Source of the DNA: Gammaproteobacteria bacterium
Lineage (GTDB): Bacteria > Pseudomonadota > Gammaproteobacteria > Pseudomonadales > Pseudohongiellaceae
Assembly (NCBI GenBank): GCA_002731775.1
Contig: PCCP01000051.1
Coordinates: 17,515-50,293, forward strand
DNA: 32,779 bases
Direction of reading: 5' to 3'
The stretch's first letter is position 1. The number at the start of each line of letters is the position of its first letter. Of the stretch, positions 14,487 to 19,797 are shown in pieces. The notes under the pieces are model-generated. The model worked only from the letters and a program-made list of their open reading frames with translations. It did not search any database and had not been told where the DNA came from. The translations under genes and the position numbers were made by a program.

Positions 14487-15620
14487 ATGACCTCTTCATT
14501 ATTGCCGGAAACACCGCTGTTAATTTCGCCGACCCTGGCGTCTACCATAGGTCTGGAAGAGGCGGTCATGCTGCAGGTGCTTGCGGAGCTGATAAACCAC
14601 GGAGCGACAGTAAAACGCCCACAGGCGAAAAATCTCGACTGGCTGGAACTGGATGATGCTAAGTTACAAGATGCCTTTCCATTTTGGGCGCCGGTTGACA
14701 TCAGGCGGGTGCAAGCCAGTTTGCAGAATCTGGGCCTGTTGCTGATCGACCCGGACACACAAGCTTCCAGCAATTATTTTTTTGCCATCGATGAGGCCAG
14801 CGATGAGGATGCCGCGTCCACGAAAACAAGGCCATCGCAGCCGGGCCCTGCGGCGATCGCTACCGGCACAGCATCACTGATGCCGCCGAACTGGCAACCG
14901 GATGACGGCTGGATGCAGCAATGTAAGCAACAGGGAATACCGGAACCCTTTGCCCGTTCGCTGGTGACGGAATTTGTGGCCTACTGGCGAGAACGTGGAC
15001 AGGCGCGGTTCTCCTGGGGTAGCGCCTTCTGCAAACACGCATTGAAGCAATGGCGGGAAGAGCAGTCGCGAAAGGGTGCCTACGAGTTGGCCAGCGTCAT
15101 GGGCGCCGAATGGCAACCGAATGCCGATGCGGTGGGCATCCTCGAGATTGCTGGTGTCAATCCAAGCTTTATCGAGGACGCGATTCCAGAATTTGTCTTG
15201 TATTGGCGCGAACGGGGGATGGTGAATGGTGCCTGGAACACGAAGTTTATCGAGCACATCAGACGCCAGTGGGCGAAATTTTCAGCGTCGTTTGCCTATG
15301 ATGACATACCGAGGCCGATTAGTGCTGACTGGCAGCCCAGTGCCGACTTTTATGAAATACTACAGCTGGCAGAAATCGAAGCGGATTATGCCAGGCGTAA
15401 GATTCCTGAGTTCGTCATGTACTGGAAAGACAGTCAACAGGTCAAGCCTTCATGGAATACGACGTTTCTCCAGTTCATAAAGCAGGATTGGGCAAGGCAA
15501 TTAAAGCAGTTGGATAACGCGGATAAAACCCATGCAGAAGATCAAACCCTTGCTGGATCTAACCAGCAAAAAATTAGAGAAAAATTCCAGAAAATCGCCG
15601 ACAGAAGTTGGGCAGAATAA
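14487..15620 (+). CDS. Replication protein with winged-helix-like N-terminus and three DnaT-type repeats
   Basis: This is a protein of 377 aa. Residues about 8-92 (IGLEEAVMLQVL ... FPFWAPVDIRRVQASLQNLG) look like the winged-helix N-terminal domain of phage replisome organisers and DnaD-like proteins. Residues 134-193, 207-265 and 279-338 are three copies of the DnaT C-terminal ssDNA-binding module. Each has WQPxxx, then E/DFVxYW, then SW or AWxxxF and a W-containing end. E. coli DnaT has one copy. A low-complexity linker (100-133) separates the two parts. It probably binds ssDNA and helps load or activate the replicative helicase during replication restart. The downstream lambda-P-like gene overlaps its 3' end in another frame, so the two are translationally linked. 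No integrase, capsid or repressor genes lie nearby. Confidence 0.8.
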   Translation: MTSSLLPETPLLISPTLASTIGLEEAVMLQVLAELINHGATVKRPQAKNLDWLELDDAKLQDAFPFWAPVDIRRVQASLQNLGLLLIDPDTQASSNYFFAIDEASDEDAASTKTRPSQPGPAAIATGTASLMPPNWQPDDGWMQQCKQQGIPEPFARSLVTEFVAYWRERGQARFSWGSAFCKHALKQWREEQSRKGAYELASVMGAEWQPNADAVGILEIAGVNPSFIEDAIPEFVLYWRERGMVNGAWNTKFIEHIRRQWAKFSASFAYDDIPRPISADWQPSADFYEILQLAEIEADYARRKIPEFVMYWKDSQQVKPSWNTTFLQFIKQDWARQLKQLDNADKTHAEDQTLAGSNQQKIREKFQKIADRSWAE

Positions 15621-16248
15621 ACCCGCGCCCGCGGTCATGACCGTCGGTGTTGCCGAGCCGGAAGCGAATTTTGACGATGAGGACGGCATGGATCATGTCG
15701 ACGCTATCAACCAGATCTTCGCGGAGTTCGAATTTGCCTACCACAACCAGTTTCACAAGGCCTTTGCCGAGACGGAGAGCCTGGTCATCGCGAAGAAATA
15801 TTGGCTCAGTAGCCTGGAAAATTTCGCGCCGCTGCAGATCGTTCAAGCGGCGAAGCAGGTAATCAGGAGCCAGGATTATTTGCCGTCTATTGCCGCCCTG
15901 GTGCGGGCCTGTGAGCAGGGTCTGGATCTCTTTGGCCTGCTCCCTGCCAGGCAGGCCTATCTGGAAGCCTGTGGGGCGCCACCACCGAAACGTGAATTTC
16001 ACTGGAGTCACGCGGCGGTCTACCATGCCGGCCAGGCAAGCGGCTGGTATCTGCTGGCTAACACCGCGGAAGCCACGGCGTTTCCCGTGTTCGACTACAA
16101 CTATGCGCTCCTTTGCCAGCGGGTCATCCGGGGCGAAACCCTGAGTATTGAGTTGCCCACACCCCTGCCCAAAAAAATCGAGCGCAAACTGGATAAGGCA
16201 GAAACCAAGGCGCGTCTCGCCATGCTCAGAGATGAGCTAGGTTTGTAG
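15532..16248 (+). CDS. Lambda-P-like replication protein (putative DnaB helicase loader)
   Basis: This is a protein of 238 aa from ATG 15532, which overlaps the DnaT-repeat gene by 89 bp. An ATG at 15637 would give 203 aa without overlap, and neither has a clear Shine-Dalgarno. It resembles phage lambda P in order of features. There is a central INQIFAEF...KKYWLSSLE helix pair, then YLPSIAALVRAC (compare FLPSPGQFVAWC), then WSHAAVYHAGQASGWYLLA. It ends RVIRGETL-ELPTPLP and ARLAMLRDELGL (compare INRGEAI-KQLP and KFGL). Lambda P delivers DnaB to the origin by contacting the replication initiator. Here the partner may be the preceding protein. The likely role is helicase loading on the chromosome or at restart; whether it is essential cannot be read. 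Confidence 0.78.
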   Translation: MQKIKPLLDLTSKKLEKNSRKSPTEVGQNKPAPAVMTVGVAEPEANFDDEDGMDHVDAINQIFAEFEFAYHNQFHKAFAETESLVIAKKYWLSSLENFAPLQIVQAAKQVIRSQDYLPSIAALVRACEQGLDLFGLLPARQAYLEACGAPPPKREFHWSHAAVYHAGQASGWYLLANTAEATAFPVFDYNYALLCQRVIRGETLSIELPTPLPKKIERKLDKAETKARLAMLRDELGL

Positions 16249-16263
16249 TCAGTCTCTGTCCCT

Positions 16264-16653
16264 GAGATATCCCTGGAAAGTATCTAGCTAAATCAAAAAT
16301 TTCTGTATAAAAAATACCCGGCCATCTTGCCGGGTTTGGCCGAACGTATGTGTCGTTTGTCCGCGAATTCGAGTTGCCTAGTCCCCTTGCGCACAATCAG
16401 GCCATGCTTATATCCTTCAGTTTAGACAGGTTAAGCAAGGACTGTCTGAGCCGCAGGCGAGTTTCCGCAGCGCTGAAAAAATGGAAGCGCGAATGGTCGC
16501 AAGGAAAGTAGGGTAGAGGATTTTCGCCGGGAAAGTATCTTAAGAACGGAGCACCGTAACTCACCACCATAGCCTTCACTCAGCGGAGTAACCAAGCCAC
16601 TCTTTTTGAGCTAAATTTGTTTGATTTAGCTAGATACTTTCCAGGGATATCTC
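16264..16653. mobile_element. MITE-like element with 34-bp perfect terminal inverted repeats
   Basis: The arms 16264-16297 and 16620-16653 are exact reverse complements over 34 bases (starting GAGATATCCCTGGAAAGTAT). About 320 bp of non-coding sequence lies between them. Outside the arms, TTTGTAGYCAG and TCTGTC recur in weaker inverted form, so the symmetry may extend by some 20 bp. The octamer GGAAAGTA is also repeated internally near 16503 and 16531. The middle contains a GC-rich palindromic stretch (near 16446-16480). The only open frame (60 codons, minus strand) is not recognisable, so no transposase is encoded. The element lies between convergent genes and could form a very stable hairpin. 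Confidence 0.65.
16316..16338 (+). terminator. Rho-independent-type terminator after the lambda-P-like gene
   Basis: The stem CCCGGC (16317-16322) pairs with GCCGGG (16329-16334) around a CATCTT loop. An extra A-T pair closes it and a TTT follows. An A-rich run precedes it, so it may also work weakly on the opposite strand. It lies 68 bp after the stop of the lambda-P-like gene and inside the inverted-repeat element. The T tract is short, which lowers confidence. Confidence 0.5.
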
Positions 16654-16688
16654 CGAGACAGACATGGTTTCTGGCTACAAAGTCGGAA

Positions 16689-18537: not shown

Positions 18538-19797
18538 ATGTTTAATAGCGATGTCAGCCTGTCTGAGTTCGATCCAGAAATCAGCGCAGCCATCGAAGCA
18601 GAAAATATCCGTCAGGAACAACATATTGAATTGATCGCGTCTGAAAACTATACCAGCCCACTGGTATTGTCGGTTCAGGGAACGGTGCTGACTAACAAAT
18701 ATGCCGAAGGCTATCCGGGCAAACGCTATTATGGTGGTTGTGAGCATGTGGACGTGGTCGAGTCCCTGGCCATTTCCAGGGCTCGGGCTTTGTTCGATGC
18801 CGACTATGCCAACGTACAGCCCCACTCCGGTTCTCAGGCCAACGCGGCCGTTTATATGGCCTTGTTAAAACCGGGCGACACGGTACTGGGAATGAGCCTG
18901 GCAGACGGTGGACATCTCACCCATGGTGCCGGCGTGAGTTTTTCGGGTCGAATTTACAATGCGGTTCAATACGGCCTCAACAAGGACACCGGAGAAATTG
19001 ATTACGATCAGGTCGATGCCCTGGCGCAGGAGCACAAGCCGAAGATGATCATGGCCGGATTCTCGGCCTATTCCAGGGTAGTGGACTGGAACCGATTTCG
19101 CGAGATCGCGGACAGCGTTGGCGCTTACTTCGTCGTGGATATGGCACACGTCGCCGGTCTGATAGCGGCGGATGTGTATCCGAGCCCGGTAAACATTGCC
19201 GATATCACCACCTCCACTACTCACAAGACCTTGCGTGGACCCAGGGGCGGGTTAATTCTAGCGCGGGCAAATCCGGAATTGGAGAAGAAGCTTAATTTTG
19301 CTGTGTTCCCGGAAAGCCAGGGCGGACCACTAATGCATGTAATCGCCGCTAAGGCCGTGTGCTTCCTCGAAGCCATGAGTGAAGACTTCAAGTCTTATCA
19401 ACGGCAGGTATTACAAAATGCCAGGGTCATGGCCCAGGGTTTTATTGATCGCGGCTATGATGTTATATCTAATGGTACCGATGACCACTTGTTTCTGCTG
19501 AGTCTTATCAAGCAGGGCATCACCGGTAAGGATGCGGACGCAGCCCTGGGGCGGGCAAATATTACAGTTAACAAGAACGCGGTACCAAATGACCCCAAGC
19601 CACCGTTTGTAACCAGTGGCTTGCGCATTGGTTCTCCAGCCATTACTACTCGCGGACTTAAAGAAACCCAGACCGCGGAGCTGACTATCTGGATGTGTGA
19701 TATTCTCGATGATCTGGACAACGATGCCAGGATCATGGAAGTCCAGAAAAAGGTGATTGATCTTTGTTCCAGCTATCCGGTCTATCAGCAATTATAG
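18538..19797 (+). CDS. glyA: Serine hydroxymethyltransferase
   Basis: This 419-aa PLP enzyme interconverts serine plus tetrahydrofolate with glycine plus methylene-tetrahydrofolate. It is the main source of one-carbon units and supports purine, thymidylate and methionine synthesis. Present are [11 protein letters not shown], the PHSGSQAN block, [10 protein letters not shown] and the PLP lysine in [15 protein letters not shown] (Lys230). The length matches the bacterial family (E. coli 417). The start has CGGAG 7 bases upstream. It heads a co-directional series that continues into nrdR and the rib genes. A TAGAAT hexamer at 18476-18481 may be the -10 of its promoter, but the only -35-like sequence is 20 bp away. 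Confidence 0.97.

Follow-up and report, generated by a model that had tools for sequence, protein, structure and literature searches.

Loading of the replicative helicase is essential, and in bacteria the loader has repeatedly been replaced by phage genes. The question raised by the locus described here is whether two overlapping genes with phage relatives have become the resident loader of DnaB in a gammaproteobacterium of the order Pseudomonadales. The locus lies in the window, i.e. the whole stretch of 32,779 nt that was analysed. We refer to the two genes as dopC and dopE, after the known pair that they resemble.

The gene pair and its domains

The original prediction, made from the DNA letters, had described a protein with three DnaT repeats and a lambda-P-like protein encoded by overlapping genes. 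Profile and fold searches agreed with it (Table 1). The DnaT domain profile, PF17948, matches DopC of the window over three stretches; the NCBIfam DnaT equivalog scores the same protein at 24.9 bits and does not reach its cut-off of 201. For DopE, the Pfam lambda P score is only just above the cut-off, the PHROG match to a P-like loader has E-value 1e-16, and lambda P is the top fold match of a weak model (mean pLDDT 61). A sequence search of solved structures returned DnaT entries for DopC at no better than E 0.019–0.1, and nothing at E 1 for DopE.

Table 1. Coordinates of the features of the dopC/dopE-type locus in the window
Feature	Position	Strand	Evidence
dopC-type gene (377 aa): O/DnaD-like winged-helix N-terminus and three DnaT domains	14487..15620	+	Profile, model and fold searches
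N-terminal winged-helix-like domain, residues 1–101	14487..14789	+	Model and fold search, phrog_6493, phage alignments
DnaT repeat 1, residues 132–194	14880..15068	+	PF17948, repeat alignment/tree
DnaT repeat 2, residues 204–267	15096..15287	+	PF17948, repeat alignment/tree
DnaT repeat 3, residues 277–340	15315..15506	+	PF17948, repeat alignment/tree
dopE-type gene (238 aa): lambda-P-like helicase loader	15532..16248	+	Pfam, PHROG, fold match
dopC/dopE reading-frame overlap, 89 nt (~29 codons in two frames)	15532..15620	+	ORFs, relatives

The N-terminus of DopC resembles phage replication initiators. Residues 1–88 match phrog_6493, a DnaD-like loader (1e-5); several phage O-like or DnaD-like proteins are 30–35% identical over the N-terminal domain (E 2e-5 to 5e-3), and proteins annotated as O or O-like align with this domain at E 3e-5 to 3e-4; the Pfam lambda O profile gave no match to DopC of the window at E 1. 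A Foldseek search with the DopC model (pTM 0.30) returned nothing under 1e-3; the structural reading of this domain comes from a second aligner, which gives CRP and MarR proteins scores only slightly below those of the initiators.

The length of the overlap, with the dopE start placed by a conserved start motif, is kept in 67 of the 80 best relatives; one has another length, and in 12 no start motif was found.

Positions of E. coli DnaT that stack on ssDNA or contact its backbone, as given in PMC4132743, were compared over 98 DnaT repeats (three of the window, 92 from 40 loci, three of phages or prophages). Stacking position F124 is kept in all 98; Y127 is Y or F in 90, and W128 is W in 87. 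Among the backbone-contact positions, K143 has a basic residue (K or R) in 77 repeats, most repeats have other residues at K133 and R146, and F135 falls in a gap in 97; positions 143/146 of the window read A/K in repeat 1, K/E in repeat 2 and T/Q in repeat 3. In this alignment almost every repeat retains the stacking residues; retention of the basic residues is only partial.

Chromosomal residence

The pair had also been predicted to be chromosomal, with no prophage genes nearby, and this was borne out. Genes flanking the pair, among them those for a carboxylesterase-like protein, SHMT, NrdR, and RibD-like and lumazine-binding proteins, gave no match to phage structural, integration or replication-initiation families. 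The best 80 of 234 related loci were taken with 6 kb on each side (some end short of the flanking genes). The kinase-like gene was found within 6 kb in 60 of these loci and ettA in 70; the SHMT gene (18538–19797 in the window) recurs in 54. The pair is conserved among relatives outside prophages, and in all 80 both partners have overlapping open frames. The relatives are for the most part gammaproteobacterial MAGs; the named ones include Pseudohongiella isolates (a genus placed in Pseudomonadales by NCBI), among them Pseudohongiella nitratireducens and Pseudohongiella sp. O18, which have the three-repeat pair.

Over the order as a whole, we considered 40 loci, each taken from a different one of the 147 pair genomes; they represent all 28 pair-bearing families and were partly picked for unusual repeat numbers. 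In every one of the 40 loci the two genes are adjacent and on the same strand, the DnaT gene preceding its partner. As ettA is present in just five of these loci, the neighbourhood is not kept order-wide. The DopC/DopE-type pair is resident in the chromosome, outside a prophage.

Two minor observations concern the surroundings. The 408 bp between dopE and ettA (16255–16662) have 60-nt inverted ends, 83% complementary, and look like a small non-coding transposon (MITE); a related sequence (79% over 171 nt) sits at the extreme end of a relative contig (L041), as expected of a repeated element. At another locus of the same family (L171, genome G224) a 315-aa open frame ends in a second, partial copy of DopE, which corresponds to the C-terminal half; no DnaT repeat was found in the stretch taken.

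Distribution of helicase loaders

PF06992 proved unsuitable as a genome-search profile: in the window's own genome it missed dopE of the window, and its only match, at 14.4 bits, was elsewhere. We therefore used a purpose-built alignment as the DopE query in a census of 244 genomes of the order. The DnaT domain was found in 148 genomes, DopE in 148 and DciA in 76; DopC and DopE occurred together in 147, the pair never occurred with DciA, and 21 genomes had none of the three. Fisher's test, uncorrected for relatedness, gives p 3e-44 for this alternation, a value that overstates independence since the species are related; the alternation largely tracks families. At E 0.001, DciA (PF05258) had no match in the own genome and none in the 147 genomes with the pair. 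Taken over the order, the table (147 pair, 76 DciA, 0 both) gives comparative support for a third type of loader.

A single partner accompanies DciA in two genomes (G231, DnaT only; G060, DopE only), where it is perhaps a prophage copy. Twelve of the 21 genomes with none of the three have DciA matches below the cut-off (best E 0.001–0.7) and nine have no match at all; seven of the nine are <90% complete.

The own genome, 90% complete, has PriA. No DnaC was found in it (it is the only genome searched for DnaC); two IstB/DnaC-type matches turned out to be DnaA and Lon. At E 0.001, PriB was without a match in the own genome (G000) as well. Across the order, 100 of the 244 genomes match PriB at E 0.001 and 26 at the cut-off; counting these 26, PriB is present in none of the 147 pair genomes versus 26 of the 97 others. 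The weaker matches, mostly open frames of 166–271 aa, are probably SSB; two stronger ones below the cut-off (104 aa in G035, 156 aa in G018) are in genomes without the pair. PriB fails to reach the cut-off in 58 of the 76 DciA genomes too, so its absence does not single out the pair and weighs little.

In a sample of 274 genomes of the class, DopE was matched in six and DnaT in eight (the own genome being in both counts), which makes the pair almost exclusive to the order. Outside the order but within the class, locus L176 (G288) has a three-repeat DnaT protein with a weak DopE, and L177, in a 0.9-Mb genome (G273), a two-repeat DnaT protein with DopE undetected.

Number of DnaT repeats and age of the triplication

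The own genome is not alone in having the triple repeat. PF17948 matches, counted per genome over the 148 genomes with DnaT and taking in extra prophage matches, number one in 39 genomes, two in seven, three in 90 and at least four in 12; three repeats are present in all 80 best relatives (of 234). Among the 40 pair loci, 22 have three repeats, 14 have one, two have two weak repeats and two have four. One of the single-repeat families, f27, is Marinomonas (a protein match of 100%, covering 94% of the query).

In a tree of the repeats, rough and built on few columns, copies of repeat 2 from different families form a single group (94% of 200 bootstrap trees), and so do those of repeat 3 (99%). 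Repeat 1 falls in with the single repeats of hosts; its group takes three changes because the single repeats fall among its members, and support for repeat 2 is uneven (92/0). The phage DnaT repeats lie near repeat 2, not repeat 1, in the same tree. Since repeats 1, 2 and 3 correspond across families, the triplication is old and predates the split of those families. The DopE tree, rooted at the midpoint, puts the 23 three-repeat rows into one group (95/95). The rows with two and with four repeats are in it too, as is one row with a single repeat, which is probably a case of repeat loss.

Phage relatives and the history of domestication

Both proteins of the pair have relatives in phages. The earlier view of a system built from phage parts is supported, and so is its standing in the place of the usual loader. 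A protein of Stenotrophomonas phage Suso, annotated as a DnaD-like primosome initiator, aligns with DopC residues 2–195, i.e. the N-terminus and one DnaT domain (29.5%, E 6e-15); its annotated neighbours include no P-like gene. In Pseudomonas phage Ab31 a P-like gene follows directly on an O-like gene; no DnaT repeat was found there.

Both features are combined in two prophage-like loci, L166 and L168, from two genomes of family f35: an O-like protein with one DnaT repeat is encoded directly before a P-like gene. L168 has a phage-type repressor and a late activator as neighbours, L166 a recombination exonuclease. Of six extra loci in this family, only these two have a DnaT repeat beside a P-like gene. 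Their genomes also hold a separate resident pair (loci L142 and L143), so resident and prophage versions coexist. In BLASTP comparisons the DnaT repeat of L168 aligns with each of the three repeats of the window, the N-termini of its O-like protein and of DopC of the window do not align, and its P-like protein is 29% identical to DopE of the window over 205 columns. Among viral contigs, 13 stretches matched our search patterns, which are best suited to three-repeat proteins; none was a relative.

One could suppose that O–P pairs were domesticated several times in the order: in the three-repeat clade, in families f6/f27/f38 and in f2/f8/f35. We consider this quite possible, if on the whole doubtful. 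There are three DopE groups with different DopC layouts, and in a wider tree, some of whose forks are weak, the DopE proteins of f6/f27/f38 fall among P proteins of phages and prophages; however, the AU test does not reject monophyly of the resident DopE proteins (p 0.376; 54 of 61 rows, seven long or short rows being dropped). This account is about history and is compatible with the pair as a resident loader.

Proposed function

In our opinion, the pair is very likely a resident helicase loader, a DopC/DopE system derived from a phage O–P pair, apparently at an early date, and replacing DciA or DnaC. The three tandem DnaT domains of DopC would grip exposed ssDNA like a ready-made segment of DnaT filament and mark the loading site, while the winged-helix N-terminus or the tail would meet the initiator and DopE–DnaB. 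DopE, being lambda P-like, would hold DnaB via its C-terminal domain, open the ring and bring the helicase to the site marked by DopC, as lambda P does. On DnaB, the LH-DH surface is a binding site common to DciA, DnaC and lambda P (PMC9912922). A step in which DopC hands DnaB to DopE is plausible as well. We infer in this way the binding of DnaB and of ssDNA, the opening of the ring and the order of recruitment; the site might be oriC, a restarted fork, or both.

Alternatively, the pair could serve restart only, with DopC acting as a DnaT with PriA at stalled forks and passing DnaB to DopE, and an unseen loader working at oriC. The DnaT domains of DopC, the presence of PriA and the position of E. 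coli dnaT directly before the loader gene dnaC are all in keeping with such a role; we find it improbable, though, as over 244 genomes the pair alternates with DciA, a replication-initiation factor according to Brezellec 2016, and as the usual DnaT partner, PriB, is above the cut-off in no pair genome (a point of little weight). A reading of the pair as the relic of a prophage, or as phage genes acquired recently, with no role in the host is hardly credible, in spite of the phage relatives of both proteins and of prophage-like pairs whose parts come in the same order, given the non-phage flanks conserved in relatives, the frames open in every one of the best relatives, the want of a relative among the viral contigs matched (with patterns best for three-repeat proteins) and the alternation with DciA.

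Returning to the resident loader, one could speculate on why three DnaT domains are linked. In E. coli, according to PMC13377028, C-terminal domains of DnaT form a helical filament on ssDNA (two nucleotides per subunit interface, four domains seen), for which PriB is the scaffold. The separate DnaT subunits have to polymerise in this way before they can take the strand over. The triple unit might be a covalently pre-assembled filament segment, acting in one step without PriB, in a single loader for both oriC and PriA-dependent restart; we offer this tentatively and think it rather unlikely. If true, the DnaT copy number (one to four among lineages) would tune the ssDNA footprint and the need for helpers.

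Relation to known systems

A domesticated pair derived from lambda O/P, DopC and DopE, was reportedly described by Brezellec et al. in 2017 on chromosomes of gammaproteobacteria without DciA and DnaC/I. The pair in the window is of this kind, judged by the reported features: a lambda-P-like protein has an adjacent partner related to a phage O-type protein, neither dciA nor dnaC was found in the host genome (90% complete), and the pair resides outside a prophage. The replacement of a loader by phage genes has thus been published already, and DopE is listed as a loader family in a 2026 paper; the original prediction, partly supported as a whole, was mistaken in taking the pairing to be under-described. 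No experiments on a DopC/DopE-type loader were found in the accessible literature that we searched.

Like E. coli DnaT, DopC of the window has a DnaT domain and is encoded directly before a helicase-loader gene; E. coli has one such domain, PriB as partner and DnaC as loader, whereas the window has three domains, no PriB match in its genome and a P-like loader. The order of ssDNA binder, then loader, is that of dnaT–dnaC, reached with a different loader family. Phage and prophage O–P genes share an O-like protein with DnaT (Suso), adjacent O- and P-like genes (Ab31) or both (L166, L168); unlike the window, they have at most one DnaT repeat found and, in the prophage-like loci, lie beside phage-type repressor, activator or recombination genes. 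The presumed role of the pair, that of resident DnaB loader, is also the role of DciA, which belongs to an unrelated family.

The triple linked DnaT module is the less described detail; no description was found in the open literature (Brezellec 2017 and closed journals being outside the search). New here are how widely pair and DciA alternate, the age of the triplication and the correspondence of its repeats, the lack of PriB above the cut-off in pair genomes, and the prophage-like version with its parts arranged alike. The old triple unit is a simple test case for the conversion of an oligomer into a tandem fusion, and natural one-repeat relatives such as Marinomonas can serve for comparison. 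Short one-repeat DnaT genes, of 153–181 aa, also precede DopE at loci L122, L126, L142, L143 and L156–L158 (families f2, f8 and f35); these open frames are near E. coli DnaT in size.
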